A DNA stretch of 64,000 nt from Saccharomycopsis phalli (lineage: Eukaryota > Ascomycota > Saccharomycetes > Ascoideales > Saccharomycopsidaceae): positions 1-64,000 of the forward strand of contig CP073214.1 in NCBI GenBank assembly GCA_020342235.1, given 5' to 3'. The position numbers and the translations under genes were made by a program. This document shows positions 11,695-42,335 of the stretch, in pieces. The notes under the pieces were generated by a model. The model saw nothing but the letters and a program-made list of their open reading frames with translations, did not search any database and was not told the DNA's origin. Every line of letters starts with the position of its first letter. Within the stretch, counting starts at the first letter, position 1.

Positions 11695-12051
11695 TGTTGA
11701 AAGTGCTGAAAGTGTTGAAGGAGTTAATGCATGGTGAAATACATCATGCATGATAAATAAGCTGGTATTGAGAAATAGCAATCCTTCAGTACCATGATAT
11801 CATACTGTTTATGGTATATTAAGAGTATGAGGTCATAGTATTAGCAATCTAATAAAGTTATCAGGTCATACTAATAGTGAACTGATAATAATATGAGGTC
11901 ATACTAATAATGATGTCATGAGATAAAGATAACTGAAGGCATCTCAGAAAGAATATAAATAGGACAGGAAATAGCTAGTATAGTAACAAGAATAAGAATA
12001 TCTACAATAGTAAGATATGGAAGCCATTGAGAGAAACGCTAGCTTACGACA
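11695..12051 (+). mobile_element. 5' LTR of nested copia element
   Basis: A 357-bp LTR (TGTTGAAAGT ... CTTACGACA), identical by eye to the copy at 16438-16794. TATAAATAGG lies about 95 bp before its end. The likely gag start (12017) lies inside the LTR. Confidence 0.95.
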
Positions 12052-16437: not shown

Positions 16438-16794
16438 TGTTGAAAGTGCTGAAAGTGTTGAAGGAGTTAATGCATGGTGAAATACATCATGCATGATAAA
16501 TAAGCTGGTATTGAGAAATAGCAATCCTTCAGTACCATGATATCATACTGTTTATGGTATATTAAGAGTATGAGGTCATAGTATTAGCAATCTAATAAAG
16601 TTATCAGGTCATACTAATAGTGAACTGATAATAATATGAGGTCATACTAATAATGATGTCATGAGATAAAGATAACTGAAGGCATCTCAGAAAGAATATA
16701 AATAGGACAGGAAATAGCTAGTATAGTAACAAGAATAAGAATATCTACAATAGTAAGATATGGAAGCCATTGAGAGAAACGCTAGCTTACGACA
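16438..16794 (+). mobile_element. 3' LTR of nested copia element
   Basis: A 357-bp repeat identical by eye to the 5' LTR, preceded by the purine tract and followed by the ATTGG target duplication at 16795-16799. Confidence 0.95.
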
Positions 16795-18143: not shown

Positions 18144-18407
18144 TAGTGCAACATCGGTGTCGGTAATATCTTGACCGACTCCCGGTTTTGATTAGACTAA
18201 AGTAATCCAACCAATGATGTTTTTGATAAGATATTATTGGAGGATAAAGATCTGATAAGAGATCCAGAATAGTCTATATAAGAAGGGCTTCCTTCTTATA
18301 GAAAACACACAATTCAACTGAACAGTTCAGCTAGATATTATATCTAGCAAAGCCCAATCCGGTTATCCAAATCCTAAAGGAACAAAACAAATAATTAAGT
18401 AGTTTAT
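18144..18407. mobile_element. Solo-LTR-like insertion within the outer element
   Basis: A roughly 264-bp segment flanked by the 7-bp direct repeat AGTTCAC (18137-18143 and 18408-18414), inserted into the RNase H region. It contains TATATAAGAAGG and a GAAGG/CCTTC hairpin, and a nearby TTCAACTGAAC palindrome, giving LTR-like content. It does not match the other two LTR families and lacks clear TG...CA ends at this phasing, so an unrelated short element is possible. Confidence 0.6.
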
Positions 18408-21205: not shown

Positions 21206-21317
21206 GCCTCCAAAATATTTAGTTCAGAATTTTATATACACAATGTATATTACTGTAACGATTGGAACAATGTATAATTATTATAGTAGCTACTGATAGT
21301 TCTGTGCTCCGAACCTA
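21206..21317 (+). mobile_element. LINE target duplication and right part of LTR-like copy B
   Basis: The right target duplication (21206-21217) is followed by TTTAGTTCAGAATTTTATATACACAATG, resembling 7310-7340 of copy A, and the segment ends CCTACA before the next LINE tail. Confidence 0.45.
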
Positions 21318-21545: not shown

Positions 21546-22472
21546 TTAGGAAGACTTCACATTTGCATCCATCTCGATATTGATTGTGTCGCTAGATAAC
21601 GACAGGATTTCTCTATAGAAATTCTCTCTTTCCAATTCAATTGGATTGCCAAATGGCATTGAAATAACAAAAAGCAAACAAACAAAAAATATTAAGAGAG
21701 CATCGAACACGTAAATAAAAACCTCATGGGAGGCAATAAATCCATCATTACCCTCAATGAACTCCACAGTTCTGACAGTCGATCTCACAAGAATAAGTAG
21801 CGAGCAAGCAATTAAATTATAGTTGAGAATATGCCAATTGGTTTGATAGAATGGATGCATTATCTTACCGATATTTGCCGCAAACTTAACCTCCGATAAC
21901 GAGAAGATTCCAAAAAAGACGATTTGCAAGACTAACCCACCAACCACTATTCTAGCACCAATCTTCTGTGTAGAAGCTTGGGTCATAAGTCCTCCGCCAC
22001 CACCTTGAATAATAAAACTAACAAGGTCCCCTGAAACAAATGTGGTGGTAATATAACGGGACGGGACAATAGATAAACTAGTGCTCTCAAGGCAAATTAA
22101 AAGACGCCCAAATATCATGTATATAGAAGCAGCCTGGAAAGCAGGAGCAATCAAGATTAAAAGGGTCTGACCAATATAGAAATGAATTGAGCTGGGATCA
22201 TGAGAAGAGGCAATTCTGAAGCCATATCCAATTGCTTCAAATAAACATCCAAGCAAAAAAGGGATATACTTATATGACATAGTATTAACTACCTTTCGAA
22301 GCTTTTTAACTTGCTCTTCAGTAATTTGATCTGGCACAGGTATCTTCAGCTTCTTTCTGTAGTAAAGAATTAAGCATATCAACGCAAAAAATCCAAGAAA
22401 GAATAACGTTAGAAAGAGAGAAGCAGCTCCTCTGGATGGATGATATTTGTAAGGAACAAAATTGTTGGCCAT
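21546..22472 (-). CDS. RTA1-family membrane protein (lipid-translocating exporter type)
   Basis: A 308-aa protein with about seven hydrophobic segments and the family's signatures: FLLGCLFEAIGYGFR in the N-terminal half, the loop VSGDLVSFIIQGGGGG, and RSTVRTVEFIEGNDGFIASHEVFIYVFDALL near the C-terminal helices. RTA1/RSB1 relatives sit in the plasma membrane and confer resistance to sphingoid bases, 7-aminocholesterol and azole stress; the exact substrate here is unknown. The ATG at 22472 is the first in frame and the length is normal. Two perfect TCCGCGGA sites lie 61 and 111 bp upstream, fitting zinc-cluster drug-response control. It stands alone between LINE debris, so it is a subtelomeric accessory gene. 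Confidence 0.9.
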   Translation of the reverse strand: MANNFVPYKYHPSRGAASLFLTLFFLGFFALICLILYYRKKLKIPVPDQITEEQVKKLRKVVNTMSYKYIPFLLGCLFEAIGYGFRIASSHDPSSIHFYIGQTLLILIAPAFQAASIYMIFGRLLICLESTSLSIVPSRYITTTFVSGDLVSFIIQGGGGGLMTQASTQKIGARIVVGGLVLQIVFFGIFSLSEVKFAANIGKIMHPFYQTNWHILNYNLIACSLLILVRSTVRTVEFIEGNDGFIASHEVFIYVFDALLIFFVCLLFVISMPFGNPIELERENFYREILSLSSDTINIEMDANVKSS

Positions 22473-26527: not shown

Positions 26528-27964
26528 ATGACAAAAACTACTTCCAAAGAGTATTCCATTCTTCCAGATCAGTTAGAGCCGCGATTTGCTGAAATTAAGA
26601 AGGCATTAGTCAAACCAGAAAACATAACCGCGGTCACTGAATCATGGAAAAGGTTACTTCTAGCTTTAGAGAAGGAAGCCGCCCAGATTTCCAAGGATGG
26701 GCCTTCGAGAGTACCTACATTTGAGTGGAGCGAAATTCAGAAGAACAATTTTCATTTAACTGATGATCAATTGAAGATATTCAAGAGTAGAGGTACCGCT
26801 CTTGTTAAAGGTGTGGTTGACAGAGAGCAAATAGATAAGTGGTTCAATGAGTTAGTTGCCTTTATTAAGGAGCATCCTGAGACAGGTGGGTATCACTATC
26901 CGAATGGTGCTTCCATGTACAATGTATTCTGGAGTAAGGCACAAACTGAAGCGAGATTCCACCCAGAGATAGTTAAACTTTTCAAGTTATTTAGCAACAC
27001 ATTCCATGTAAGCAATACTAAGAACTCTTACTTGGATCTTGATACACAAGTTGTTTACGGAGACAGAATCCGCATTAGACAGCCAGGCCAGAAAGCAGAT
27101 CTTCCTTTGCATTTAGACAGCTCCTCCATAGAAAGATGGGAGGACATCAAGTTTAGGGAAACATACAGTGAGATATTTGAGGGAAATTGGGAGAATTGGG
27201 ATCCTTGGAGACTTGATGAGAGACAATTTGCCCAAGAGGACTTATATAAGTATCTTGGTGAAGCGCGTTCTACAAATTCTATTAGCTCTTCCTTCAGAAC
27301 CTTACAGGGCTGGCTTAGCTTGTCAGATAACAAGTCTGGTGAAGGTACTTTACGTGTACTTCCATCTGTTAAGTTAGCTATTTCCTATATTTTGCTACGG
27401 CCATTATTCTGGCAAGATCCAGTTCTGGGAAACATTGATGATTATAAGATTGATTTAAGTACTTCAAAATTTCCTGGAACCAAGCCTTCTTTTGGTCAGA
27501 TCCTAGTTGAGCCATCATTATTTCCCCACCTCCAGAGCTACCAGTCTGTTGTCGGTATTCCAGATGTAAGTAAGGGCGATTTCATATTTTGGCACGTTGA
27601 CTTGCCTCATGAAGTTGACCCACTTCATGAAGGACCGACACATTCAAGTGTCTTCTATTATTCTATCTCACCGCTCGCTCCTGGAAACATTGAAACTTTA
27701 CTAGACACCAGAAATTCTTGGAAAAAGAATATATCTCCTATTGATTTCAGATCACAGTTACCTGCTGGTACAGTAGAGTATCAAGGAGCCGATGATAAGA
27801 ATCTTCCCGATGAAGACTCAAAGAGATCGATGGGATTAGCGCCATTTGATTTGACTGGTGATCTAACAGATGCACAAAAGAGTATCAGAATTATCGCTAA
27901 CCAGGCCCTAGAAACTGGTTCCTTCGATTTGGAAAGTTTCTTAAAAAAAGTGGAGAGAGGCTAG
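26528..27964 (+). CDS. DUF1479 protein, putative Fe(II)/2-oxoglutarate dioxygenase
   Basis: A 478-aa protein of the DUF1479 (YbiU-like) family, which has the double-stranded beta-helix fold of 2-oxoglutarate-dependent oxygenases. Candidate iron ligands are H195 and D197 in LPLHLDSSS and H361 in FWHVDLPHEVD (H356 as an alternative). The N-terminal region has PTFEWSEI and YPNGASMYNVFWSKAQ, conserved in the family. No signal peptide or membrane segment is visible, so it is probably cytosolic. The family's substrate is unknown. It is the first gene of a seven-gene accessory block containing two sugar-type permeases, a regulator, an NCS1 permease and hydantoinase-like and lactamase-like enzymes, so oxidation of an uptake substrate is possible. 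The length is normal and the frame intact. Confidence 0.85.
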   Translation: MTKTTSKEYSILPDQLEPRFAEIKKALVKPENITAVTESWKRLLLALEKEAAQISKDGPSRVPTFEWSEIQKNNFHLTDDQLKIFKSRGTALVKGVVDREQIDKWFNELVAFIKEHPETGGYHYPNGASMYNVFWSKAQTEARFHPEIVKLFKLFSNTFHVSNTKNSYLDLDTQVVYGDRIRIRQPGQKADLPLHLDSSSIERWEDIKFRETYSEIFEGNWENWDPWRLDERQFAQEDLYKYLGEARSTNSISSSFRTLQGWLSLSDNKSGEGTLRVLPSVKLAISYILLRPLFWQDPVLGNIDDYKIDLSTSKFPGTKPSFGQILVEPSLFPHLQSYQSVVGIPDVSKGDFIFWHVDLPHEVDPLHEGPTHSSVFYYSISPLAPGNIETLLDTRNSWKKNISPIDFRSQLPAGTVEYQGADDKNLPDEDSKRSMGLAPFDLTGDLTDAQKSIRIIANQALETGSFDLESFLKKVERG

Positions 27965-28951
27965 CCCTGCTATTCGTTAAGATAATGACAAAAGATTGAC
28001 GCTCGGTCAAAATGAAGTCAAATAGTTATATATATCATAGTGTCTATCGTATTTGATTGAGTCGTAAGCAATCGAATAAATTCAGATGAATACCACGATA
28101 ACGGATATGCCTTAAGAGGAGCTTAATCGATACAGAGAGGTCCTCTCATGCTTTTTTCTCTTTTAATTTGAGTTGAGCACTCGCCATAATATGACAAGAA
28201 AAGCACAAACACAGTGTTTGTTATAGTCAGTTGAATCTTGCCATTTTCTATCTATGGCCCTTGTCGCAAAATAAATAAATCTACCTGACCCTGCCCGGGC
28301 AGAAAACCGAAAACAATAGGATAAGAATAAAAGAATAGCAATGTTAAACGGAATAAAGCGACATTGTGCGCGCAATTATACTCGCAAGAGCTAATGCAAG
28401 TCCCCTAAATGACAACATGACAAGAGTTGTCAATTACTAGAGAGCAATAATAAATAATTTCATAGTCGAATACTCTATTGTAATTGATTTCAGGATCAGA
28501 TCTTTGATTTATAGTGGCCAGATCGTCGGCTTGTAGTGACCAGATCTTCAACTTTTCAATCAAACCACCTCATTGACACAAAAGCTTGTCAATATGTTCA
28601 GTAGTACATGCTATTGTAATATTTTGCTTCACAGTTGCTTCCGTATAATGCAGAAATAAATAGCTTAATTCTTGTTATCATTCAACTATTTTCTATCGTA
28701 TATATACTGAGAAAAAAGATGTTGTTTCCTTAATGTAACCCTACTTTATTTGTTGGGCATAATTCACACGTTGTATCACTGACATACGCATCCTGTTACC
28801 TTTGATCTCTGCTACCAGCAAGACTCGCACTTTGATGCCTAAATCATTATATTATATTTGAGCAGAAAGAGATAGAAATCTACTTATTCGAATTACATCA
28901 CGATTTTTAGAAAACAAGATTAAGTACTTATAATTTTTTGGATTATATCAC
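27965..28951. other. Gene-free intergenic stretch (convergent genes)
   Basis: The 987 bp between the convergent DUF1479 and MFS genes. It is AT-rich with no RNA gene or repeat partner that I can see. It is unusually long for a convergent spacer in yeast, so a lost gene is possible. Confidence 0.4.
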
Positions 28952-30595
28952 TTAAACCACAGACACATCCTTCTTATCATAAAATCCAAATTGTTCGGCG
29001 GAATCACCATTGGAAATAGCATTGAATACTTCTGAAGCTTCTTCTAAAGTAAAGCCAGAAGTCTCAACGAATGTGAAAAACACGACCAATAATTCCACAG
29101 TCAAAGTACAGCAATATACAATATAATACTTCCATCCAATAGCATCCATCGCAACTGGATTGACAAATCCGTTAAAGAGAATAAACAAGTTGACATAGAA
29201 CTGAAAAATATTGTTTCCTTTTGCCCTGTGTGAGTAAGGTAAAATCTCAGTGACATACAAAGAAGGTAAGCCGTTAAGACCCAAATTATAACCAGCGTAA
29301 TATAAGAAGATCATGGCGAGAACACCATTAGAGAGATTCTTATTCTTAAAGTCTCCTTTTTGGTTGAGTGCTGACAATATAGTCCATAATATATAAAATA
29401 ACAACATCAGCAAGGTTGAGACTAAGAACACATGTCTTCTTTTGAATTTCCCCACAACAAGAGCAATAGCAAAAGATATAACAAAGTTATAGATCATTAA
29501 TGCTCCGTTAATTTCTAATTGTTCTTTTTCTGAGGTTATACCAATGGAGTTAAGCACCAAGTTCAAATAATAGGATACCAATCCATTACCTGACAAATTT
29601 AACATAATACCAAGAAAAGATAAAATAAAAAGCCTCTTTCGAAAGGAAGGAATTTTAATGAAATCAGCATACGAAGTCGTGGATGAAAGTTTCTCCAACT
29701 CAAGGGCAGCCTTGATTTCTGTTATTTGGTAGTCAATAAACCTCTCGGCAGCAGGAGTCTTTGAATTTCCAGTATGGTATGTACTAAGAATATTCCTGGC
29801 CTCGTCAATTCTACCTTTTGATAATAAAAATCTAGGAGATTCTGGAACCCACCAGGTAAAAACTGTTTGGACCAATGGAAAAAAACCTTGTAAATAAGAA
29901 GGTATTCTCCAACAGTAAGAATCATCAATAACTCTAGTGCCGTACGTAACCCACGCAGCCACAATAGCGCCCAAATACCAATAAGCGCCATATAAAGTAG
30001 TGTTAGCTGATCTATATGATTTTAATTTATGCTTTCCAGCATGACGTTTCTTTTGCTCCTCGGTTTCATGTTTCATATTTGGAAATGAAATCTCAGCGAT
30101 CAAAAGTGGGGCAGAAACAGCAGTGACCCCGTTACCAAAACCAATGATAATTCGGGTAACCAAAAAGAAAGCGTAGTTGGTTGAATTTGCTTGTAATATT
30201 GCCCCCGCCACTGTAATGAGGGAGCCTATGATTATGGCGTACCGTCTTCCGATCTTATCAGATAGCCAACTGGCAATTGCGTAGGCTAAAATAGCACCAA
30301 AGGTAGTACCATTTGACAAGGCCCCCAACACAGCACCAGAAGGATTGGACATTGCTTTGCTCCATATAGAAAATACTTGCAATCCATTGAGCATACTTCC
30401 ATCGTAACCGTTGTTCGTACTGGCCAAGGTGCATACAAAAATATGCCATGTTAAAATCTGAAGGTGACGGTACGTGTACCAAGGCTTATCAAAGTAACAA
30501 TATTCGTTTAAATCACCACTGTCATTATTAAGAGCACTGACACCAATAATAGCATCGTTCTTCTGACTGTTTTCGCTACTTGCTGTTCCTGGCAT
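28952..30595 (-). CDS. MFS sugar-type permease (Lac12-like)
   Basis: A 547-aa transporter of the major facilitator sugar-porter family with about 12 membrane segments. Signatures are NNGYDGSMLNGLQ in the first helix region, DKIGRR after helix 2, WRIPSYLQG, the PESPRFLLSKGR motif, and FVETSGFTLEEASEVF near the C terminus. Overall layout resembles fungal lactose/oligosaccharide permeases (Lac12 type), but the family also carries other polar solutes. The first ATG gives a normal length. It faces the Zn2Cys6 regulator across 1.07 kb of divergent upstream DNA, so shared control with that gene is plausible. The substrate is not determinable. Confidence 0.88.
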   Translation of the reverse strand: MPGTASSENSQKNDAIIGVSALNNDSGDLNEYCYFDKPWYTYRHLQILTWHIFVCTLASTNNGYDGSMLNGLQVFSIWSKAMSNPSGAVLGALSNGTTFGAILAYAIASWLSDKIGRRYAIIIGSLITVAGAILQANSTNYAFFLVTRIIIGFGNGVTAVSAPLLIAEISFPNMKHETEEQKKRHAGKHKLKSYRSANTTLYGAYWYLGAIVAAWVTYGTRVIDDSYCWRIPSYLQGFFPLVQTVFTWWVPESPRFLLSKGRIDEARNILSTYHTGNSKTPAAERFIDYQITEIKAALELEKLSSTTSYADFIKIPSFRKRLFILSFLGIMLNLSGNGLVSYYLNLVLNSIGITSEKEQLEINGALMIYNFVISFAIALVVGKFKRRHVFLVSTLLMLLFYILWTILSALNQKGDFKNKNLSNGVLAMIFLYYAGYNLGLNGLPSLYVTEILPYSHRAKGNNIFQFYVNLFILFNGFVNPVAMDAIGWKYYIVYCCTLTVELLVVFFTFVETSGFTLEEASEVFNAISNGDSAEQFGFYDKKDVSVV

Positions 30596-31666
30596 TGAAT
30601 CGAATGGTATTCCTTCATGATCTGTCTCACTACTTATAGTGAGAATACAAAGTAATTCGAATATGACGAAATCAAGCCTGATTTGATTCTATCCTAGTCG
30701 ACAGTTCTATTTGGCATATCAATAGTCACCCGAAGTCTTTTGGGACGCTATATGATTAAGTGTGGCTCAAGAAAATGTTGACATGGCAAACTACATATGC
30801 AAGTTTTCTACCTGCAATTAGGCAATATATCTGTAAGGATGGCCAGTATTTCATAACTTACACAGAAAGAAAGAAGCCTGTTTTCCCGGTATAGTGCTGT
30901 AAATTGTGATTTTTGATTGTCATATTCTATAGATCATTGTAGTCATTATCATTTGCAGGTGAACATCATGTCTTATCAGATGAAAATAAAAATAAGAAAA
31001 AGCGGTAAGTTTATTGATCAGCACACCGGTGTTGTTGCTGCGTTGCATACAAATTTGCGTTATTGAATTTAGCAATAGAGAACTGTGGTGCACTTACAGT
31101 GTCTAGGCCACCCAAGAACAAGGTATGAAGGGATTTCCGATTTAAACACGGAAACTGCATTATTCAAGCACTCTGAGCTTAATTCGATTTACTAGAAAAA
31201 CCTACCTATTAATTATATTATAATCGTTTACTAATAGTACTTACATATAATATTATTTTACCAATAATACTGATCTATTATAGTACTTTACTAACAATAA
31301 TGATCATTCTAGCATTCTACTAATATTACTTGAAATTGACATGAACACTAAGATTAGGTGTCTCGTAAAATTTTTATGGGTCTGCCGCCCTGTTTACTCG
31401 ATCGTGTGTGCAGAAAAAAAAAAAGCAATGTAAAACTGTCAAACGCGACTCAAGAATGCAGGATATCACTTGCACCGCTACTCTTCAATTCAATACCAAT
31501 ATTCACTCCGATTTTATCACAGGCTGAAATACTTTTCTGGACTCAAGTTTTACATAAATTTAATCTTATTTGCATCTTTGGAACCCTATTCTGATCTGTG
31601 AAGGTCAGCGGAGATCTGCGCCTGTCAGGTTATTTCTGTATAAAATTTGTCTTGCTATAGCAACCT
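30596..31666. promoter_or_regulatory. Divergent upstream region (MFS gene / Zn2Cys6 regulator)
   Basis: 1,071 bp between divergent starts. AT-rich, with repeated (C/T)TACTAATA(G/A)TACTTA-like text at 31225-31330. A short frame at 31358-31594 is not supported as a gene. No canonical CGG-Nx-CCG dimer site is visible. Confidence 0.4.
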
Positions 31667-33406
31667 ATGGTAAAGGGCAGAAGCAAATACAGTCACAGTG
31701 GTTGTGTGGCCTGTAAGAAAAGCAGTATCAAATGTGATGAAGCTTTTCCGACATGTGTGAATTGCCAGAGGAAGCTGGTAGACTGTGAGTATAAGTACAA
31801 GCTATTTGTCTACCAACCTGACCGAAATCAGTCAGAAGCAAAGAGGCAAAAAAAATTCAAAAAAATCGAGGTGAAGCTCGGGGAGGACATACATATTATG
31901 CCAAAGAAGGAGGCTCTGCCAGAGTTATTATTAGAGTCATTGAATGTTTTTGAGGATTTGCTAGGTTCATTCAGAGACGACTTGCATGACGGCAGTGCCA
32001 AGCGGAAAGTCGCAACAGAGACGTTAACATATTGCCCCAAAATAGACCTGGTTAATCTGTATGATCCCTCAAAGGTACCTGACTACGTGTGTTACTGGAC
32101 CTCCTTTGATAAAGAAAGATACCAGCTTCTCTGGGATAAGCTTGATGCCTCTGGAACCATGAAACTAGAGGGACATTATCACGAAGACGAGCCGGAGGTT
32201 CAAGAGTTAATATGGCTTGACTTTGTGGCTACAAACTGTGTCTTCAATTTTATTCTTGTCACCAATGATGACCTCAATCCTGTCGTTAGTTGGCTCAGTT
32301 TCTTTGGTCGGAAGTACCCTGTTGTATCCCGGACCATCAATGCCATAACTTCAAATATGCTTCAAGAAAGATGTCTGGATGACAGGTGGAGCTGTATTTT
32401 GAACAGAAAGATGAGCATAACTTTGAATGATATCTCTAAGAGAGTTGGTATGGTGAGCTCGTTCCCGGAAATGGTATGTTACTCCATCTGCATCATGTTT
32501 CTTTTCTCTGAGCGTTCTGCCACGAGACTGAATGCTTGGAGGACTCACTTAAAGGGTGCTTTTGCTATTTTAGATACCTGCAAAGACATTTATAATAAGC
32601 TTAGCCTTCATATGGATGATTTGGACCAGGAGATGCGCTATGCTTTGCATATGTACTCCTTTACTAAGAACTGGTTTGTGACAGCAGAGACTATCGCTTG
32701 CTTGTCGGCTCCAAATGGAGGTGCTATTTCTGATGTTTCTTTGTCACATGCTAATCTTAGCTTCATGCCAAAGAGCAAAGAAGATGGCTTCATGATGGGT
32801 GGTTTTAATTTTATCAAGGGTTACTCACAGCGACTCACTTCTATATTTGTCGAAATTGCTACATTTATTATATCGTTTAAAAATGATAGAGGTATTTCTC
32901 TTAGTGGAGCCCAGGGTATTATCAATAATTTGGAGAAATGTGATAGCCGCACAAAACTAGGCGAGAGACTTCTTACCAATATTGCAGATGTTGAGGCTGA
33001 GAAGTTTAAATTTATTACCATTCTGGATTACAAGCTACGGGCCACAATGAAAGCATGCAATATTAGTTATTGCTCTGCACTACGATTGTATATACTAACG
33101 GTGTTCATTGGCAGGCCAATATATAGCCCGGAAGTGCTTGAATGTGTTTTGACCATAGAAGAACAGTTTGCCACTATCAGCGATTTGGAAAAATATGGAC
33201 TTTGTATTCACTGGCCACTATTTATAGGCGCATTATGTTCGCCCCCAGGAATACAAAGAGAATCGTATCTTGATATTTTGAGAAGAATGTCTAACAACAA
33301 GACCCATGTGGCCACAAACACTGTAGAAAGAGTGGAAAGATGCTGGAAAATATTGGACAGCGGAGGGATAATCAATGAAGAAGACTACGACTGCATAACA
33401 TTATAA
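31667..33406 (+). CDS. Zn2Cys6 zinc-cluster transcription factor
   Basis: A 579-aa protein with an N-terminal Zn2Cys6 binuclear cluster: C13-x2-C16-x6-C23-x6-C30-x2-C33-x6-C40 within SGCVACKKSSIKCDEAFPTCVNC. A basic linker (KRQKKFKKIEVK) follows and the rest is a helical fungal-regulator middle region, so it is a nuclear DNA-binding protein that usually recognises CGG triplets. It lies inside the accessory block, ending 28 bp from the convergent NCS1 permease gene, and is the natural candidate for the block's pathway-specific regulator; that role is inference. The ATG at 31667 places the zinc cluster at the expected distance from the N terminus. Confidence 0.9.
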   Translation: MVKGRSKYSHSGCVACKKSSIKCDEAFPTCVNCQRKLVDCEYKYKLFVYQPDRNQSEAKRQKKFKKIEVKLGEDIHIMPKKEALPELLLESLNVFEDLLGSFRDDLHDGSAKRKVATETLTYCPKIDLVNLYDPSKVPDYVCYWTSFDKERYQLLWDKLDASGTMKLEGHYHEDEPEVQELIWLDFVATNCVFNFILVTNDDLNPVVSWLSFFGRKYPVVSRTINAITSNMLQERCLDDRWSCILNRKMSITLNDISKRVGMVSSFPEMVCYSICIMFLFSERSATRLNAWRTHLKGAFAILDTCKDIYNKLSLHMDDLDQEMRYALHMYSFTKNWFVTAETIACLSAPNGGAISDVSLSHANLSFMPKSKEDGFMMGGFNFIKGYSQRLTSIFVEIATFIISFKNDRGISLSGAQGIINNLEKCDSRTKLGERLLTNIADVEAEKFKFITILDYKLRATMKACNISYCSALRLYILTVFIGRPIYSPEVLECVLTIEEQFATISDLEKYGLCIHWPLFIGALCSPPGIQRESYLDILRRMSNNKTHVATNTVERVERCWKILDSGGIINEEDYDCITL

Positions 33407-33434
33407 TACTATAACTAACAATAATAAGAAGTCT

Positions 33435-35075
33435 TTACTCTAATTTGTGGATTGATACATCAGATTTGACATCACTCTCAGAGATATGCTTATACGGCAC
33501 AATTTTCTTGTTTTCGCATTCTTCCTCGGTGAATGTATTGAAGTAGTCGTATTCGTCTTCCTCTTCGACGTTTTCATACGGCCAGATATAGCTACTCACT
33601 GCTGTCAAAAAGAAAGAAATGCAGAATTCAAATATTGTGTTACCGTAGTAAAACTGTGTGATGCCAGTATTGACTTTAAGCTTAGGGTTGCTAACATTAA
33701 TAAGACCAGGTATTCCTGGGGAGAATGCTATTGCCCAAATAATAAGGTTGCGATAATTGATACCATTCCAGTACCAGTACTTCCCATTGGGATTATCGGT
33801 GTATAGATGTGATAACTTGAGATGTTTCTTTCGTACAAACCAAAAATCGGCTGTAATAATGCCAACAATTGGAGACATAAACACAGAAAACGATGACATG
33901 ACTGTGACGAAAGTAGATGATGTATTGTAAAAGTCCCAAGGTTGTACCACCCATGATAAAAGTGCAGTGATAATCGCGCCTCTTCTAATCGTGATGTAGG
34001 TAGGAAGTAACCCAGCCATATCCATACCACCGGCATAGCCATTACCCATTGTATTGAAGCAAATTTGAGACAATGTAAAACACAAGCTACAAAAAAATGC
34101 AGCTGCTCTGGCTTTCGCAGTGTAATGGTTTGTAAGCCACAGCATAATAATCTGGTTGGGCATCCATACTTCTTCACCGTACTTTTCCTTCATAGAAGAA
34201 GCTGAAAGCAACCCCATTAATGGAACAATAGTTCCCATCACTATTAGGGAAAAGAATGTTCCATAAAGTGACGACCAAGGCTTCTTTGAAAATCTGGTAA
34301 AGTCAGACTGGTTTGATACTCCTGCAGCAAGTCCGCCGTACCATGAACAGATACCGCGAATCCAACTCCAACCTCTTTGCGAGGAAGTCATAGGATCTGA
34401 AGTAGTCATCAAGGGACCATTCAGACCTCCATTATTCGAAATAGACCAAGCAGTGATACCCACCATTGAAAAAAAAGTCAAGATACATGTCACAATCAAC
34501 ATCTTGTTAAATTTTTCAGGCCTTATAAGTAACGGTGGAATAGAAAGTAACTGAAAAAGTACAAAACCCACTAACTGCTGGGTGGTCATATGCACTGACT
34601 CAGGAATCGTATTCTTCAATGTTAAGTAGTTATGACTCCATGAGGAAAGTAGACAATTGAGGCATAATGCCCCAAGGTAGGCCTGTGATCCAAACCAGAC
34701 TATTGATAAAATAATCCGAATAATGATACCAAAGATGGATCCACGTATTCCAAACACTACCCGTTGTGAAATTGTGTATCCAATATGGAAATACCCACCT
34801 GGTGCGGCTGTCAATAGGGCTAAAGAGGCGACAATAATATTCCCAATTAGAATAATCACTAAAGTCTCTCTAGCAGATAGACCTAGAGACAAAAGAGAGG
34901 AGGCACCAGTCCAGGTGGAAATGGTGACGTTAGTAATAGACCAATAAAAGGCAAGAGACCACACTCCCCAAATCCGACGCTTAGGGCCCATAGGGATGAT
35001 ATCCTTATTTCTTAAGTAAGTGACTTTCTCCACGCCATCTCCAGGTGATACCTTGATAAACTGCAAGAACGGCAT
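33435..35075 (-). CDS. NCS1-family nucleobase/hydantoin-type permease
   Basis: A 546-aa nucleobase:cation symporter-1 (NCS1) protein of the fungal Fur type, with about 12 hydrophobic segments. Characteristic text is TNVTISTWTGASSLLSLGLS (helix 1), TAAPGGYFHIGYTISQRVVFG, WFGSQAYLGALCLN (helix 3), and SNQSDFTRFSKKPW. The family imports uracil, uridine, allantoin, thiamine and, in bacteria, benzyl-hydantoin (Mhp1). The substrate here is unknown. It is transcribed divergently from a hydantoinase-family gene across 1,017 bp, which suggests that the transporter supplies that enzyme. Its tail lies 28 bp from the zinc-cluster regulator. The frame is intact and the length normal. Confidence 0.92.
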   Translation of the reverse strand: MPFLQFIKVSPGDGVEKVTYLRNKDIIPMGPKRRIWGVWSLAFYWSITNVTISTWTGASSLLSLGLSARETLVIILIGNIIVASLALLTAAPGGYFHIGYTISQRVVFGIRGSIFGIIIRIILSIVWFGSQAYLGALCLNCLLSSWSHNYLTLKNTIPESVHMTTQQLVGFVLFQLLSIPPLLIRPEKFNKMLIVTCILTFFSMVGITAWSISNNGGLNGPLMTTSDPMTSSQRGWSWIRGICSWYGGLAAGVSNQSDFTRFSKKPWSSLYGTFFSLIVMGTIVPLMGLLSASSMKEKYGEEVWMPNQIIMLWLTNHYTAKARAAAFFCSLCFTLSQICFNTMGNGYAGGMDMAGLLPTYITIRRGAIITALLSWVVQPWDFYNTSSTFVTVMSSFSVFMSPIVGIITADFWFVRKKHLKLSHLYTDNPNGKYWYWNGINYRNLIIWAIAFSPGIPGLINVSNPKLKVNTGITQFYYGNTIFEFCISFFLTAVSSYIWPYENVEEEDEYDYFNTFTEEECENKKIVPYKHISESDVKSDVSIHKLE

Positions 35076-36092
35076 GACAAGACAATATTCTTACTATGCC
35101 TAGATGAACATTGATCTTGTGAATATCTATATATATATGACAAATGGGCTTTGTTTCTTGAGGATAGCAATAAGTAGACCAATAGTCCACCATGCGGAAT
35201 TATTACCTCGTATGATTAAGTCCAGAAGTAATAGCCTAATGTGGATTGATTATGGGCTCTATGCCCTGAAAAGATTGCCTGGTTGGCGTCAACTGTTGTT
35301 GATCACACATTGACATGCATGTTAGTACTTTGGAGCCGAGGAAGATGTACACATACAGTAAACTGGTTTCCCTGTCAAATTCCAATGAGACGCTCTCGAT
35401 AATTGACAACGAAAGCAGTTGGTTCATACCGTTGCGTACTTTATTTGCTATGATTATTTGCGCGTCCATAGTATATAGCAATTCAAGTATGCAGGATCAT
35501 TCTCGATCTCTTAAATTGTTAATTCATAACTATACCAATATACTGAGTAACCGGCGATCACACGTAACAGACCGTCAATCTCCGCATGTATGTGAAGTAA
35601 AACGCTATGGGAGTGCTTATTGTTACGCAATGCTAAACTGCTCGATAGGCATTAGATAAGAACTTAAAAACGAAAACTTATGAACCTAACTATACAATGA
35701 CCTCAAATCCCATGATAATCACTCCGCTGTTACACAGTTTTATTTTTATTTTGTTTCTTTTTTTCTAATATTTACTAATTTTGAGATCTCAACCAATGGC
35801 GTTACTACATAAAATAGATAGAATTGATGCAACTGACAGGTGGATCCGTGTTCCCAGCCCTTTCTTTCATGATTGGTCTGTATAGGAACAATTAGTTTAA
35901 TATTGGTTTTTCTTTTAAAACCTAGTTTTTATATTGTTGTTTTTGAAATGCTTGTCGCTTAGATTCCACTATATCCATTTTCGGAAACTTTTCCTAATTC
36001 AATGAAATTATCACTGCAACGCAATTGTTTCCCAAACTGATTGGTTATCGGTCTTTAAATCAAATAGATAGGTTAACTAAAAATAATTAAAA
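35076..36092. promoter_or_regulatory. Divergent promoter (NCS1 permease / hydantoinase)
   Basis: 1,017 bp between two divergent ATGs. It has several CCG/CGG triplets, clustered at 35550-35590, one GATAAG (near 35655, the GATA-factor core used in nitrogen control) and long T-rich tracts near 35745-35775. It probably serves both genes. The short frames inside are not supported. Confidence 0.5.
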
Positions 36093-39000
36093 ATGGCGAT
36101 AAAACACCAATTACACTTTAAAAAAATGGCAACTAGAAATTTATTGATTGGCATTGACGTTGGTGGCACCAATACCGATTCGGTATTACTCGATCCGTCA
36201 CTATTCAATAGTGACTCCAGAGGAGTAATAGCATATCACAAATCGGTTACCACTGCTGATGTAAGTGAAGGAATATCTATTGCTTTGGATGCGTTACAGG
36301 AAGGGACCAACGACTTCACTCCGAATGATGTGCGTTCTGTTACTATTGGGACTACACACTTCATCAATGCGGTAGTCGAGCAAGACAGAGCCAGGTTAGA
36401 ACCAGTTGCAGTAATTAGATTATGCGGTCCTTATACCAAGGGGACCTATCCCTTCTCGGACTTCCCTAACGGGTTAGCTAAGATCATCAAGTGTTATGAC
36501 TGCTATATTGATGGAGGTCACAGAGTGGATGGAAGTGAGATCCAACCTTTAAATTCCGATCTGGTATTAGATCATGCCCGCAAGATCAAACTGCTTGGAA
36601 TAAAGTCTGTTGCTATTGTTGGAATATTTTCCATCATCGACAAATCTCATGAGATGAAAGCAGCTGAGTTAGTGAAACTGGTAATTCCAGAGTCCAACGT
36701 GGTAATGTCACATACCGTCTCAGGAATTGGTCTCTTGGCTAGAGAGAATGCGTCGATTCTAAACGCATCTATCATGAGTTTTGCAGCCAACATCATCGGT
36801 TCTTTCATTAAATCAGTAAGATCACGTGATTACTTATGTCCGATTTTATTGACCCAGAATGATGGTACCGTATTGACTGTTGATGAAGCATTGAAGACCC
36901 CCATCCGAACCTTCTCTTCCGGAGCCACGAATTCCATGCGAGGCGCCGCATTTCTTTGTTCTAAGGAGAAGTATATTTCCGGGAAAAGCGTAATTGTTGC
37001 TGATATCGGCGGAACTACCACTGATGTTGGCCTCCTTCTCCCCTCTGGTTTCCCTCGACAGTCCTCTTCTCACTCGGAAGTGGGGGGCGTCAGAACTAAC
37101 TTCTCTATGCCTCACGTAGAGAGCATTGGGCTTGGAGGTGGCTCTATTGTCAGAAATAGCAGTGGCGAGATCACAGTAGGGCCTGACTCCGTAGGGGCAG
37201 ATATAAAGACTAGGGCCCTTGTTTTTGGCGGAGACACCATCACGACCACCGATGTCACTGTATCTATTTCAGATGGTACTTCTATATTTGAGGTTGGTGA
37301 AAAGTCTAAAGTGGTGCACTTGTTTGATGATTCTTTCATGACACAGTTCCAAGCCGTGGTAAAGGCCAAGCTTGAGCGGGTCATTGACAGGATCCGAACC
37401 AGTCCAGAGCCTATTCCGGTATTTCTTGTCGGTGGAGGGTCTTTTATTTCTCCTCTCGAATTGGATGGAGCTTCAAAGGTATACAGACCACCGTATTACC
37501 AAGTGGCCAATGCTATTGGTGCGGCAATGGGTAAATTATCTGCACTGCTTCATAAGATTGAAGTCTTGGACAGTATACTGGACCGAGGACCTGTTATTGA
37601 AAGAATGACCCTGGAAGTTACCGCTGATATTGTCAGAAAGGGTGCACTTGAGTCGTCTGTCACTGTTGTGGATATCGTGTACGACCCCGTGCCTTATGTT
37701 GACAGAACGTACTACTTTGAAATCAAAGTGGTGGCGGATATTGACTACACAAAAGTCAACATTGCGGTAGATGGGCATGCAGATTTATCCAACATATCGA
37801 AATGGGAAAGGTCAGAGGCGGTGTTTAAGAAGTCGTCATTTGGAGAGCCAAATATGTTGCCTTTGAAGGAAGAGTTGTTTGATCACAAAAGTTACAAGCC
37901 CCACATCAACTCTAAACGTGAATGGATTATTTCAGAAACGGACTTGGAGTACATTCGCATTGGAACGTATATTCTTGGCTGCGGAGGTGGCGGTACCCCG
38001 TATCCTGTCTATCTACAAGTGCGAAATATGGTGAGAAGTGGCGCGGTAATTCGTGTCATCAACTTACATGACGCTCCACGATATGCTACTGCCGAAGGGA
38101 AGTTTATCACCGTTGGCTTTGCTGGATCCCCGACTGTTGCCGATGAGCAGATTCAAGGCACTGAATTGAAAGATGCATGTGCTGCTCTTTCTGAGTACAC
38201 AAACTTCTCTCCCGATGGAGTTTTATCTGTTGAGATTGGAGGTGGGAATGGATTCAAGGGAATGTTCTGCGGTGCGTCAACTCAGTTGAACCTTCCTGTC
38301 ATTGACGCTGATTTAATGGGGCGAGCCTATCCCTTATTTTCGCAGATTTTACCGTGTGTACTTCGCAAAGAATCATTCTTGACACCCTCGTCCGTATCTG
38401 ATGGAAACGGAAACAAGTTCCTTATTACTGGGGCACAAAACGACCATTACGTCGAGAAAATGTTGAGGGCTGCATTGTCGGAGATAGGAGCTCATGTCGG
38501 AGTCGTGACAGGGCCGATGAGTTCCCGGGATTTAGTTGATCTTACAGTGCATCATTCACTCTCTACTGCATGGAGAATTGGTCGTGCTGTGCTGATTGCA
38601 AAGCTGGAGTTAGCAATTGATCAATTGCCAGAGCGGATTCTTGAACTGATCGGAGGTTCTATTGTTGGCAAACGGATCTTTCAAGGGAAGATAATAGGTG
38701 TGGAAAAACGGCTCTTCAAGGGCCATGTTTATGGAGAAGTAATTATCGAAAACATGGCAAAGGAGAAGATGTGCATCCCCTTCAAGAACGAGAATTTAGT
38801 GGCTAAGGTACAGAAACCGCTGCTGGAGGAGTGGAATATTGTATGTTCGGTACCCGACCTTATATCAGTGTGTTACGCAGATAGCGGGGAGGCTGTGGGC
38901 ACTCCTGAATACCGATATGGATTGCTAGTGTTTGTATTGGGTTTCTCACCTTCGGAAAAGTGGGTTTCCAGTCTGGAGGCCCTAGAGACTGGCGGACCTG

Positions 39001-39101
39001 CGGCATTTGGACCTGCTTTGGCTGATGTAGTCTATAAGCCAGTGGGAAAGTGTATCAAACCTGTATCTGTTATCGATGAGTATTCACCGGTTAGCATCTA
39101 A
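36093..39101 (+). CDS. Hydantoinase/oxoprolinase-family enzyme fused to DUF917
   Basis: A 1002-aa two-part protein. Residues about 15-520 form a Hydantoinase_A_N/Hydantoinase_A unit with the ASKHA phosphate-binding loops GIDVGGTNTDS and VADIGGTTTDVGLL, plus a GGGSIVRN block. Residues about 620-990 form a DUF917 domain (YILGCGGGGTPYPVYL, VEIGGGNGFKGM, AWRIGRAV, FQGKIIGVEKR). This family cleaves cyclic amides or imides such as hydantoins and 5-oxoproline, usually with ATP. Two starts are plausible: 36093 and the ATG at 36126 directly before the conserved region. At least eight in-frame CTG codons are present, more than I saw in the nearby core genes, which may mark horizontal origin. A serine hydrolase gene follows after 148 bp. 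Confidence 0.9.
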   Translation: MAIKHQLHFKKMATRNLLIGIDVGGTNTDSVLLDPSLFNSDSRGVIAYHKSVTTADVSEGISIALDALQEGTNDFTPNDVRSVTIGTTHFINAVVEQDRARLEPVAVIRLCGPYTKGTYPFSDFPNGLAKIIKCYDCYIDGGHRVDGSEIQPLNSDLVLDHARKIKLLGIKSVAIVGIFSIIDKSHEMKAAELVKLVIPESNVVMSHTVSGIGLLARENASILNASIMSFAANIIGSFIKSVRSRDYLCPILLTQNDGTVLTVDEALKTPIRTFSSGATNSMRGAAFLCSKEKYISGKSVIVADIGGTTTDVGLLLPSGFPRQSSSHSEVGGVRTNFSMPHVESIGLGGGSIVRNSSGEITVGPDSVGADIKTRALVFGGDTITTTDVTVSISDGTSIFEVGEKSKVVHLFDDSFMTQFQAVVKAKLERVIDRIRTSPEPIPVFLVGGGSFISPLELDGASKVYRPPYYQVANAIGAAMGKLSALLHKIEVLDSILDRGPVIERMTLEVTADIVRKGALESSVTVVDIVYDPVPYVDRTYYFEIKVVADIDYTKVNIAVDGHADLSNISKWERSEAVFKKSSFGEPNMLPLKEELFDHKSYKPHINSKREWIISETDLEYIRIGTYILGCGGGGTPYPVYLQVRNMVRSGAVIRVINLHDAPRYATAEGKFITVGFAGSPTVADEQIQGTELKDACAALSEYTNFSPDGVLSVEIGGGNGFKGMFCGASTQLNLPVIDADLMGRAYPLFSQILPCVLRKESFLTPSSVSDGNGNKFLITGAQNDHYVEKMLRAALSEIGAHVGVVTGPMSSRDLVDLTVHHSLSTAWRIGRAVLIAKLELAIDQLPERILELIGGSIVGKRIFQGKIIGVEKRLFKGHVYGEVIIENMAKEKMCIPFKNENLVAKVQKPLLEEWNIVCSVPDLISVCYADSGEAVGTPEYRYGLLVFVLGFSPSEKWVSSLEALETGGPAAFGPALADVVYKPVGKCIKPVSVIDEYSPVSI

Positions 39102-39249
39102 CTTTGCTAGATGCGTTGTTTGTCATTGCATGAAACCGATTGATTGTCACAGCACTTGGCGTATTTCAGGTGGTTTTGCATTCATGTGTACCCCGCATCC
39201 ATGCACTAGCCTTATATATAGTATTGCTGGTCCCTTTTATAATAGGTTA

Positions 39250-40449
39250 ATGAGTAAATTCAGTTCAAACGAGTGTAAGAAAACCCTTCAGAGTGCGTTA
39301 CACCCTTTACTCCAGGATGCTGTTGGTCAGGGTAAAACTAATGCCCCAGGCGCGGTGTTTGGGGTAACTAATGATAAGGAAACGGTTTTCCTCGAGGCTG
39401 CTGGGTATTCAGACATCGAGACGGGTAAGGAGTTATCTGTTGACACTAACTTTGCAATTTACTCTTGCACTAAGGCAATAACTGCCACTGGGTTGTTGAT
39501 TTTGAAAGACAAAGGGTTGCTTGACCTTGATGCACCAATTACAAGGTACATCCCTGAAGCCAAAAAGATTGGAATTGTACAAAAATTGGGAAGTGGTGGG
39601 GTACCTGAAGTGGTTCCACCAAAAAATGCGGTCACGACCAAAATGCTTCTTACACACATGGCCGGGTTTGGTTACACTTTTTTTCATAAGGAGTATCTTG
39701 ATTCGTCCCAAGCTGGAAATGAGTTGAATATTTTCGATGTCAAGGAGAGCTTTTACGACAACACGTTTCTCTTATTTGAGCCTGGCACAAAATGGTCTTA
39801 TGGCCTGAACATTGACTGGGCCGGACGGGTTCTTGAGCGTATCACAGGTCAAAAGTTGGGCGACTTTCTACAAGAACATCTCTTCAAGCCGCTTCGTATG
39901 CTGAATTCTACCTTCCATTTGAAGGACAGACTGAACCTTACCAAATTGTATTATAGAGGTACTGATGGGGCCTTAAAGAATAATTCTTTCCAGCAAGACA
40001 TTGACCCACCCATTGACTTGGGAGGCTCTGGGCTCTTCAGCACGGTAGGGGACTATTTAAAATTCATTAGACTTTGGTTAAACGAAGGAAAGTCGGACAG
40101 TGGGGAGCAAATTTTACAACCAGAGACATTTAGACTTGCTCTTGAAAACCAATTGCCAGAAGGGTTTTGCGTCACCAGTTTGGATTCAATGGAGCCAAAA
40201 ATCACCAACAAATTCCAGGCACCGCCTGTTTCAGATTTGTGGAGCTTGCCTTTTGCAATTGCACAGACTGATCTGGACACAGGTAGACCAAAGGGGACGC
40301 ATCATTGGTGTGGTATTGCGAATTTATTCTACTGGATAGACACGAAGAACAAAATTGGGGGCTACTGGGCCACACAGATACTTCCTTTCTTAGATCCTTC
40401 GCTTGAACATTATGCGAATCTAGAAAAGGCAGTGTACCAGTCTCTTTAA
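39250..40449 (+). CDS. Beta-lactamase-fold serine hydrolase (class C / EstB type)
   Basis: A 399-aa protein from the ATG at 39250. The longer in-frame extension to 39076 overlaps the upstream gene, contains TATA-like text and lacks family similarity, so I rejected it. Catalytic motifs are S72-C-T-K75 in IYSCTKA (nucleophile Ser and general-base Lys), Y184 in KWSYGLNIDWAG (the Yxx motif), GGSGLFSTVGDYLKF, and a C-terminal HHWCGIANLFYWID block. The family hydrolyses esters, amides or lactams. No signal peptide is visible, so it is probably cytosolic. A TATATATAG box at about 39211-39219 supports its own promoter in the short gap. It may act after the ring-opening enzyme upstream. Confidence 0.9.
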   Translation: MSKFSSNECKKTLQSALHPLLQDAVGQGKTNAPGAVFGVTNDKETVFLEAAGYSDIETGKELSVDTNFAIYSCTKAITATGLLILKDKGLLDLDAPITRYIPEAKKIGIVQKLGSGGVPEVVPPKNAVTTKMLLTHMAGFGYTFFHKEYLDSSQAGNELNIFDVKESFYDNTFLLFEPGTKWSYGLNIDWAGRVLERITGQKLGDFLQEHLFKPLRMLNSTFHLKDRLNLTKLYYRGTDGALKNNSFQQDIDPPIDLGGSGLFSTVGDYLKFIRLWLNEGKSDSGEQILQPETFRLALENQLPEGFCVTSLDSMEPKITNKFQAPPVSDLWSLPFAIAQTDLDTGRPKGTHHWCGIANLFYWIDTKNKIGGYWATQILPFLDPSLEHYANLEKAVYQSL

Positions 40450-40454
40450 TGGGT

Positions 40455-40640
40455 TATAGTAATAATAATAATGATGTTTAATTTTGTAATTAGGTATATG
40501 TTGTCTCTGGATACAGGATGTTTTACAAGTATATTAATGATTTCATTAGCAGGTTCTAGTGTTTCATTTATTCTCTGAGGAGTTATAGCAATTTGTCGTC
40601 CGTGAGGCTGGTTCCACTGAAGTGGGATATAGACTTATGT
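40455..40640 (-). mobile_element. Possible LINE 3'-end relic
   Basis: TAATAATAATAATGATGTTTAATTTTG followed by a GTATATGTTGTCTCTGGATAC block resembles the AAT tail plus TATATTGTCTCCGGCAATAC of the LINE ends at 2802 and 21318. Similarity fades after about 60 bp. Plausible but weak. Confidence 0.4.
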
Positions 40641-40709
40641 TACGATAGATAGAGACTTTATATTAATAAATAAATAAATAAAAATATTCTTGGAAACCTG
40701 CAATCTATT

Positions 40710-42335
40710 TTAATCAGTTCCATCTTCATCGTGCGATAGCTTATCTTCCTTGACGTCATGTTGGGCAACAGAAAGAGCAGCCTGCTTCTGTTGTTTGTAA
40801 GCCGCAAATTCCTTTTCGGCCTTCGAGGCCAACCAAGACTTGGAGGCAAACAAGAAGTCTATTTCCTCAAGAGTTCTATTAGCGGTTTCTGGACAGAACA
40901 AGTAGACAAGTACCAACGACAAGAAATTGCACGCTCCAAAAATGTAAAGGGTTTTTTCTTGGATATGGTTGAACATCACGGGACATAGGAGCGTCAACCA
41001 GCCATTGCCAATAGACCAGCCAACAACACCGAAAGCATTACCTTGAGCTCTGACCTTCAATGGGAAAATCTCGGTAGGGTACAACCAAGGAACAGCCAAC
41101 CATGTGGCACCAAATACAGAGGTATATATGAAGACAAAAGATGCTGCTGCTGCACCATAAGAACGGTTAGATGGGTGGAGCTGTTGAAGTTTGGAGAATC
41201 CACCAGCTAAGAACATGGCAATTCCTTGACCAATGGCACCCCAGTACAAAGTGAATCTTCTTCCCCATCTGTCAACAGTGAAGTAATTCACCAAAGTAGA
41301 GATCATGTAGAATATATTGTTCAATCCTGACAACCAAGCGGACTTTCTGGTGGTGAAACCGGCTTGCTTGAAAATCTCAGGCTGATACACAGTAACACCG
41401 GCGATTCCAACCCATTCTTGCATGATTTGCATCCATACCACGAGTTGGATTCTTCGGGCAATGTGCAAGTTCTTTGCTTTTCTCTTGGCTTCTTCGTCGC
41501 TGGCCTTGTGGTAGTCGAGTAACATTCTCAAGTAGTTCCCGGTAATGGCTGAGTCCTCCTCATACTCCATAGCTTCGACAATTTGCACGTACTCGTCTTG
41601 TCCCTTTTGCTCGCCTCTCATGCTGATGAGAAGTCTCTTTGCACGTTCATGCTCGTTGTTTTTGATGAGCCATCTAGGAGACTCTGGGAACACCCATGTG
41701 ATGGCAAAGAGAATAAGCAATGGGACTATTTGAAAGGCGATTGGAAATCTCCATCTGAAGGCCGAAAAGCCATTGTCGATATAACTCAAACCGTACTCCA
41801 ACCAGTATGCCACCACCACACCAAAGATGTTCAAGGTAAACTCAATGGCAATGAAGGCACCTCTGGAGGTGTGTTCAGCGGTCTCTGAAGAGTACACAGG
41901 TACAACTGCATTAAGAATTCCGGTTCCAATCCCATTGACAAATCTTGCACCACACATCCACGCGGTTTGTTTAGCTGTGCACTGAAGAGCTGCACCGAAA
42001 ATGGCAACTAGAGCACCTGCCCCAATAGCATTGATTCTTCCCCATTCGTCAGACTGGAATCCACCCCACAAACAACCAACAAGAGTACCAAAGTAATACA
42101 CCGCGACAATTCCACCTTGCTTTGTGGAGTCTGTCACGGTGACATCGCCGTTTGAGTCAAAGAAACCAAACTTCATGTGCAGAACATAATCTGGAGAAGT
42201 GTTGACACCGGCCATCATACCTTGGTCGTAGCCAAAAAAGAAGATTGAAAGGGCAGATAAGAAAACAACCCATCGTGTGAGGGCGTTCCCTTTGAAGTGA
42301 TTCTCGAGCAACCAGCTATCAGGAACTGAAATCAT
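40710..42335 (-). CDS. MFS sugar/polyol permease (Stl1-like)
   Basis: A 541-aa sugar-porter family protein. It shows FGYDQGMMAGV in helix 1, SDEWGR after helix 2, PESPRWLIKNNEHERAKRLL, QEWVGIAGVTVYQPEIF in helix 7, DRWGRR, PWLYPTEIFPLKVRAQG, and CPETANRTLEEID at the C-terminal end. Layout resembles the yeast glycerol/sugar symporter Stl1 and related hexose permeases. It is the last gene of the accessory block and lies tail to tail with the serine hydrolase. Its upstream flank is a 1.2-kb gene-free region leading to core genes. The exact substrate is unknown. The frame is intact. Confidence 0.88.
   Translation of the reverse strand: MISVPDSWLLENHFKGNALTRWVVFLSALSIFFFGYDQGMMAGVNTSPDYVLHMKFGFFDSNGDVTVTDSTKQGGIVAVYYFGTLVGCLWGGFQSDEWGRINAIGAGALVAIFGAALQCTAKQTAWMCGARFVNGIGTGILNAVVPVYSSETAEHTSRGAFIAIEFTLNIFGVVVAYWLEYGLSYIDNGFSAFRWRFPIAFQIVPLLILFAITWVFPESPRWLIKNNEHERAKRLLISMRGEQKGQDEYVQIVEAMEYEEDSAITGNYLRMLLDYHKASDEEAKRKAKNLHIARRIQLVVWMQIMQEWVGIAGVTVYQPEIFKQAGFTTRKSAWLSGLNNIFYMISTLVNYFTVDRWGRRFTLYWGAIGQGIAMFLAGGFSKLQQLHPSNRSYGAAAASFVFIYTSVFGATWLAVPWLYPTEIFPLKVRAQGNAFGVVGWSIGNGWLTLLCPVMFNHIQEKTLYIFGACNFLSLVLVYLFCPETANRTLEEIDFLFASKSWLASKAEKEFAAYKQQKQAALSVAQHDVKEDKLSHDEDGTD

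Follow-up and report, generated by a model that had tools for sequence, protein, structure and literature searches.

A HyuA–DUF917 fusion enzyme beside a Fur-type permease in a subtelomeric gene block of Saccharomycopsis phalli: a probable transporter–enzyme unit with a candidate role in the use of cyclic amides

Why should a hydantoinase-like enzyme and a permease lie side by side near the end of a yeast contig, and how many of their neighbors share their purpose? We examined the first 64 kb of contig C3 (CP073214.1) of Saccharomycopsis phalli, hereafter the window, in a genome of 14.15 Mb in 8 contigs. A preliminary description had proposed that seven genes between positions 26528 and 42335 form a subtelomeric cluster for the uptake and degradation of cyclic amides such as hydantoin. 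We find that the argument centers on a smaller core: an NCS1 permease, a fusion of a HyuA-type hydantoinase half to a DUF917 half, and probably the adjoining regulator and esterase. Judged from its sequence, this core is probably a functional transporter–enzyme unit, built from known families in a new arrangement, and it is rather likely to be a catabolic unit for a nitrogen compound that resembles hydantoin, a cyclic ureide, or a cyclic imide.

All seven genes are intact open reading frames, and each product scores above the Pfam cut-offs. The features of the block are as follows:

26528..27964, plus strand: DUF1479/Gig2-like protein (PF07350, 407 bits); membership in the unit doubtful
28952..30595, minus strand: major facilitator superfamily (MFS) permease of the sugar-porter family (Sugar_tr); membership uncertain
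31667..33406, plus strand: Zn2Cys6 regulator of 579 amino acids (Zn_clus and Fungal_trans_2); candidate regulator of the core
33435..35075, minus strand: Fur-branch NCS1 permease of 546 amino acids (PF02133), with W127, Q131, and N345
35076..36092, no strand: divergent promoter region of 1,017 bp between permease and fusion enzyme, as defined by coordinates
36093..39101, plus strand: HyuA–DUF917 fusion enzyme of 1002 amino acids (Hydant_A_N, Hydantoinase_A, and S-Me-THD N and C domains)
39250..40449, plus strand: beta-lactamase-fold serine hydrolase, AcmB/EstB/LovD-like (PF00144 Beta-lactamase, 168 bits); longest frame from 39076
40710..42335, minus strand: MFS permease of the sugar-porter family (Sugar_tr); membership uncertain

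The spacings reported earlier, 1,017 bp between the permease and hydantoinase genes and 28 bp between the regulator and permease genes, are exact. The 148 bp given before the hydrolase is correct for the ATG at 39250; the longest frame of that gene, from 39076, instead overlaps the hydantoinase gene by 26 bp.

The fusion protein carries Hydant_A_N at residues 19-197, Hydantoinase_A at 217-390, and two DUF917 domains at 616-984. It can be divided into a HyuA-type half (about 19-390, extending to 555) and a DUF917/S-Me-THD half (616-984). The Hydantoinase_A match is limited to the first 170 of 291 model positions; the DUF917 domains score 155 and 190 bits against a Pfam cut-off of 27. Both phosphate-binding motifs, DVGGTNTD (22-29) and DIGGTTTD (304-311), are present and are invariant in HyuA alignments A1 and A7. 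Where prokaryotic relatives have invariant columns, the yeast protein keeps 78 of 85 in the HyuA half (32 of 80 prokaryotic HyuA rows compared) and 36 of 40 in the DUF917 half (38 of 76 rows compared). No other DUF917 gene was found in the genome, which has one further HyuA gene.

A Pfam scan finds no HyuB domain in the fusion protein; in the genome, HyuB was found only in a separate frame of 1291 amino acids on contig C5, a 5-oxoprolinase with HyuA in the same chain. We rejected the identification of the fusion as the 5-oxoprolinase, since this different gene carries HyuA and HyuB together. ATP-dependent hydantoinases and oxoprolinases (CapAB, N-methylhydantoinase, and 5-oxoprolinase) resemble the fusion in having a HyuA half with both phosphate motifs; they differ in having their own HyuB with an Asp-His-Asp-His metal site, and in the GxxPGP motif given for caprolactamase (PMC8453981), neither of which the fusion has. 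The closest named family by sequence for the HyuA half is caprolactamase alpha, at 95 bits against a 1000-bit cut-off. Comparable fusions are present in other fungi. In the open-licence literature, as judged by titles and the starts of abstracts, we found no report of a fungal HyuA–DUF917 fusion.

The pairing of these families is not peculiar to the yeast. We compared it with the 80 best of at least 575 confirmed prokaryotic stretches, a set chosen for nearness to the yeast protein rather than as a general survey. Of the 80 HyuA loci, 79 are flanked by DUF917, on the same strand and within 1.5 kb in 77. An NCS1 gene is found in the flanks of 42, a lower bound with several contigs short, and in 41 of these 42 the permease frame lies within 300 bp, on the same strand, of the HyuA or DUF917 frame. 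Among the first 50 loci, NCS1 was seen flanking 27 against 0.37 expected, an approximate 70-fold excess; the expectation comes from 146 PF02133 genes in 265.5 Mb of the same genomes, where the counts are lower bounds and the profile differs from the flank search. The NCS1 permease–hydantoinase pairing is thus a recurrent unit, shared by many bacteria and archaea. These prokaryotic groups have the same three families adjacent, and they differ from the yeast arrangement in that the permease belongs to another NCS1 branch and the enzymes are separate neighboring genes: no locus (0/80) has a single frame holding both HyuA and DUF917 hits. More widely, some or all of the fusion is matched in 866 plasmid records, 72 of which cover at least 80% of it at one place, and by these matches HyuA and DUF917 genes are widespread.

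Neighboring genes add hints as to function. Among 114 neighbor open reading frames of the NCS1-bearing loci, the only loci sampled for this purpose, we counted 11 with a PucR helix-turn-helix domain, 3 with an Asp/Glu/hydantoin racemase domain, and 3 M19 dipeptidases. The 114 are what was left of 117 frames, selected from 200 candidates, after 3 long frames had been set aside, and the counts come from the 25 most frequent of 88 families. In one Streptomycetaceae plasmid locus (L009), positions 8682-11319 hold OsmC, cysteine-synthase-family, and second DUF917 genes after the NCS1–HyuA–DUF917 group, an arrangement that may point to sulfur chemistry at some of the linked loci.

The permease scores 292 bits against PF02133 and 386 bits against TIGR00800 (cut-off 353). 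Mhp1 entries are its only PDB matches at E <= 0.001, at a distant 81 bits. In Mhp1, the hydantoin ring is held by Trp117, Gln121, and Asn318, as stated in the relevant passage of one report (PMC4195764); W127, Q131, and N345 of the yeast permease align with these 3 residues. The full triad occurs in 35 of 42 linked bacterial permeases (2 of the other 7 are gapped there) versus 2 of 16 unlinked controls of the same branch, or 2 of 14 when two apparently misframed controls are set aside; the linked permeases are mutual relatives, and their counts are not independent observations. For the controls, 40 sequences were fetched and 4 dropped as linked copies, and "unlinked" is defined solely by that removal.

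The permease is much closer to home than to its prokaryotic counterparts. Its BLAST score is 231 bits with the other Fur-type gene of its own genome (L004) and at most 38 bits with the linked bacterial permeases, which places yeast and linked bacterial permeases, on sequence, in different NCS1 branches. Because the permease is closer to its own Fur-type relative than to any linked bacterial one, the importer was apparently recruited independently, which suggests that the permease–enzyme pairing was assembled separately in yeast and prokaryotes. We found 5 NCS1 genes in the genome; with 6,000 genes assumed, the chance that one would stand beside the sole HyuA–DUF917 gene is about 1 in 600. This low chance, together with the prokaryotic association, makes a functional permease–enzyme pairing likely; the conclusion does not extend to the DUF1479 and MFS genes. 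Elsewhere on the contig, at C3:394310-397768, a gap of about 1 kb separates a pair of NCS1 genes (L004 and L007) that belong to different branches.

Could the substrate be an ordinary ureide or pyrimidine (allantoin, uracil, or a dihydropyrimidine), with the permease as a further copy of a Fur-type importer? The pairing would then be the same and only the substrate would differ. Allantoinase and dihydropyrimidinase, the usual enzymes for such compounds, are metal enzymes that work without ATP, which speaks against this reading, as does the presence of another Fur-type NCS1 gene (L004) in the genome. The allantoin-permease equivalog models give scores below cut-off (160 bits versus 620 and 121 versus 800), though these models are bacterial. 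In its favor, PucR-type regulators recur in the prokaryotic loci, and FurE of Aspergillus, a Fur-type NCS1 protein, transports allantoin, uracil, and uric acid, as described in part of a study on this transporter (PMC10788122). Mhp1 and FurE belong to the same family as the yeast permease, which shares the Trp/Gln/Asn triad in our alignment with Mhp1, although it is distant from Mhp1 in sequence. On balance we regard an ordinary ureide or pyrimidine substrate as unlikely.

Returning to a hydantoin-like, cyclic-ureide-like, or cyclic-imide-like substrate, we propose the following route. The permease would import the ring compound; Trp127 would stack on the ring, and its amides would be bound by Gln131 and Asn345. 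For caprolactamase, a published proposal has the lactim activated by ATP in the A subunit, directly or via carboxyphosphate, and metal-assisted opening follows in the B subunit (PMC8453981). By likeness to such enzymes, the HyuA half of the fusion may spend ATP on phosphorylating the ring amide at its iminol oxygen. The DUF917 half could then direct water at the activated carbon and open the ring, a job done by HyuB in ordinary ATP-dependent hydantoinases; we place DUF917 in this role because the desulfurases, the two relatives of it that have names, have the corresponding ring carbon as their target. The esterase may process the opened product.

The same relatives raise a different possibility, a thiohydantoin route in which the DUF917 half would first strip a thiohydantoin or S-methyl thiohydantoin of sulfide or methanethiol, leaving a hydantoin for the HyuA half to open. 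Among named families, the DUF917 half does come nearest to S-methyl thiohydantoin desulfurase, at 40 bits, and to thiohydantoin desulfurase, at 27 bits, but these scores are far under the respective NCBIfam cut-offs, 450 and 440 bits. Both desulfurase models are matched by every one of the 39 DUF917 rows scanned; the best E-value is 2e-38, which we estimate to lie well below 450 bits. By profile, the yeast domain and the desulfurases have a fold family in common; they differ in that the yeast domain is coupled to HyuA. Adding to the case, OsmC and cysteine-synthase-family genes adjoin DUF917 in locus L009. A thiohydantoin route from ergothioneine or histidine runs through urocanase and histidine ammonia-lyase-type enzymes. 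A search of the genome finds no urocanase and no histidine/aromatic ammonia-lyase match, which disfavors an origin in ergothioneine or histidine and leaves room for other thiohydantoin sources. We consider the thiohydantoin route improbable.

A wider reading presents itself, which we advance tentatively and with somewhat less than even confidence. HyuA together with DUF917 might constitute a second lineage of ATP-driven hydrolases of cyclic amides, one that does without HyuB, is found across bacteria and archaea, and is present as a single chain in this yeast. The chemistry common to DUF917 proteins would be attack by water on a ring carbon in activated form, from which sulfide, methanethiol, or phosphate departs, and yeast and prokaryotes would independently have drawn their matching ring-amide importers from two different branches of NCS1.

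Where did the yeast enzyme come from? A quick tree built from 93 HyuA rows places it inside the prokaryotic DUF917-linked HyuA proteins, beside those of Pseudomonadota and Chloroflexota. Its branch is long (2.52) and joins at an open fork beside L010, L031, L042, and L046 (support 82). The tree, which includes no other fungal proteins, fits an old transfer from prokaryotes with donor and direction not established. We also looked for a recent prokaryotic donor and found none, the branch being long and its placement an open fork.

Several observations weigh against a hydantoin-type catabolic unit, or against parts of it. The adenosine motif GxxPGP is missing from the yeast enzyme and from 11 aligned prokaryotic HyuA proteins, and ATP may bind differently. 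NCS1 is absent from the stretch examined in 38 of the 80 prokaryotic loci, among them the four loci nearest to the yeast branch (two of them on contigs of less than 9 kb, and with the yeast placement unsure). Among 11 annotated plasmid loci, a cytosine permease is present in 4, and the other 7 carry ABC transporters instead, and it is these ABC cases that count against the pairing; the 11 were picked from 40 listed rows, L009 in part for the cytosine permease given in its row. Hydantoin specificity is also weakened: of 20 unlinked Fur-branch controls, 15 have the complete triad, as does the other Fur-type gene of the yeast, and we therefore take the triad as the mark of a binder of ring amides rather than of a hydantoin importer. 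As to co-regulation, neither GATA nor CGG-pair motifs are enriched at p < 0.05 in seven intergenic stretches compared with shuffles (the 28-bp stretch was excluded as too short). Finally, we found nothing that links either the DUF1479 gene or the MFS genes to the NCS1 and fusion genes.

These last two results bear on how much of the original proposal survives. The permease–hydantoinase pair as a recurrent unit is supported, by its occurrence in many prokaryotes far above the base rate and by the retained Mhp1 triad; the unity of all seven genes is not, given the lack of an enriched motif and of any tie to the DUF1479 and MFS genes. They also invite the view that the genes are unrelated subtelomeric neighbors with no joint function. 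Subtelomeres are known to accumulate transporter and enzyme genes, and both the promoters without a common motif at p < 0.05 and the unlinked DUF1479 and MFS genes are in keeping with this view. Set against it are the recurrence of the family pairing in 42 of 80 prokaryotic loci and the chance adjacency of about 1 in 600, and we give it little credence.

A weak lead to a regulatory link comes from shared promoter words. The 12-mer AAGACAATATTC occurs immediately before the NCS1 gene (35079) and again, at 42556, upstream of the second MFS gene; the 42556 site and the regulator promoter (31497) have an overlapping 12-mer in common. In shuffled promoters, the observed number of coincidences was reached in 3 of 300 trials and at least one coincidence in 32 of 300, in a test set up after the motif had been seen. 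AAGACAATATTC has 14 copies genome-wide and its reversed form 2.

The hydrolase is the only PF00144 gene found in the genome. It scores 399 bits against the NCBIfam model of AcmB, a methyl acetate hydrolase, which is below the 550-bit cut-off, and its PDB matches are esterases and transesterases; by these scores it is related to AcmB and is not classed as AcmB. The two MFS proteins score 252 and 313 bits against Sugar_tr, and a genome profile search reveals a second DUF1479/Gig2-like copy on contig C2.

A gene group of partly similar content is known from other yeasts. Region B of Zygosaccharomyces bailii in wine yeasts also holds a putative oxoprolinase, a transporter, and transcription factors; there the oxoprolinase stands with a nicotinamide transporter and Flo11p, and the passage on this region mentions neither DUF917 nor NCS1 (PMC3053389).

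DUF917 proteins were described as experimentally uncharacterised as of 2024, in a section of one paper (PMC11055893). NCBIfam now names two DUF917 desulfurases, and the yeast domain lies far below either cut-off. A single-chain HyuA–DUF917 protein beside a permease in a yeast provides tractable genetics for identifying the substrate and for asking whether DUF917 can stand in for HyuB; the recurrent NCS1 pairing restricts the substrate to small ring amides.

How should these proteins be translated? The seven genes contain 28 CTG codons, 12 of them in the fusion gene. Compared with 11 prokaryotic proteins, the 12 positions fall in 5 polar, 4 gapped, and 3 mixed columns; leucine occupies 2, 3, and 5 of the 11 rows in the mixed columns, and no column is mostly leucine. 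When all 20 readings of CUG were tried, leucine ranked 17th and 18th for the two fusion halves and serine 10th and 8th, with serine ahead of leucine by 3.7 and 7.3 bits. CUG is thus most likely decoded not as leucine but as serine; since serine itself ranks only 10th and 8th, leucine is excluded and serine unproven. Standard translation of the seven genes is most likely wrong at up to 28 residues. Family assignments are independent of CUG decoding: under the serine code, most Pfam scores are slightly higher, and the MFS_1 scores of both MFS proteins are lower. Three intron-containing tRNA copies have a long variable arm, a serine-like body, and an anticodon read as CAG, and the Rfam tRNA model matches all three:

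L104 1446-1536, contig C3: CAG tRNA copy
L105 1485-1575, contig C5: CAG tRNA copy
L106 1446-1536, contig C7: CAG tRNA copy

ARAGORN, run with the bacterial code, calls no CAG tRNA; it reports nothing in L104 and L105 and only a tRNA-Leu (TAA) in L106. The base that precedes the CAG anticodon appears to be A; CUG-Ser yeasts usually carry G at that position.

The surroundings of the block fit the subtelomeric position first assigned to it, as the window begins at base 1 of contig C3 with an array of about 36 copies of the 8-bp telomere-like unit CATCCGCA (1-290). The GC content of the window is about 40%. The block had also been said to adjoin debris of a long interspersed nuclear element (LINE); it does not. 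A truncated LINE reverse transcriptase remnant lies at 19821-21218 (RVT_1, E 3e-10), and an RTA1-like gene (21546-22472) and about 4 kb intervene. Six open stretches within 23.2-26.1 kb gave no match in a Pfam scan. Inward of the block are homologues of TFB2, SEC10, and VPS41 (Pfam).

Further outward are genes of copia-type elements (12639-18146). Identical repeat arrays at 11826-11919 and 16569-16662, 4,743 bp apart, flank the copia-type pol region and are perhaps the long terminal repeat pair of a single element; an additional RVT_2 frame follows the second array, at 16770-18146. Near the telomere, two separate frames (904-1545 and 3726-4493) contain partial subtilase (Peptidase_S8) matches, perhaps remnants of secreted proteases. 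On the inward side, a TCC tandem repeat of about 42 copies (50770-50893) lies inside a minus-strand frame of 219 amino acids.

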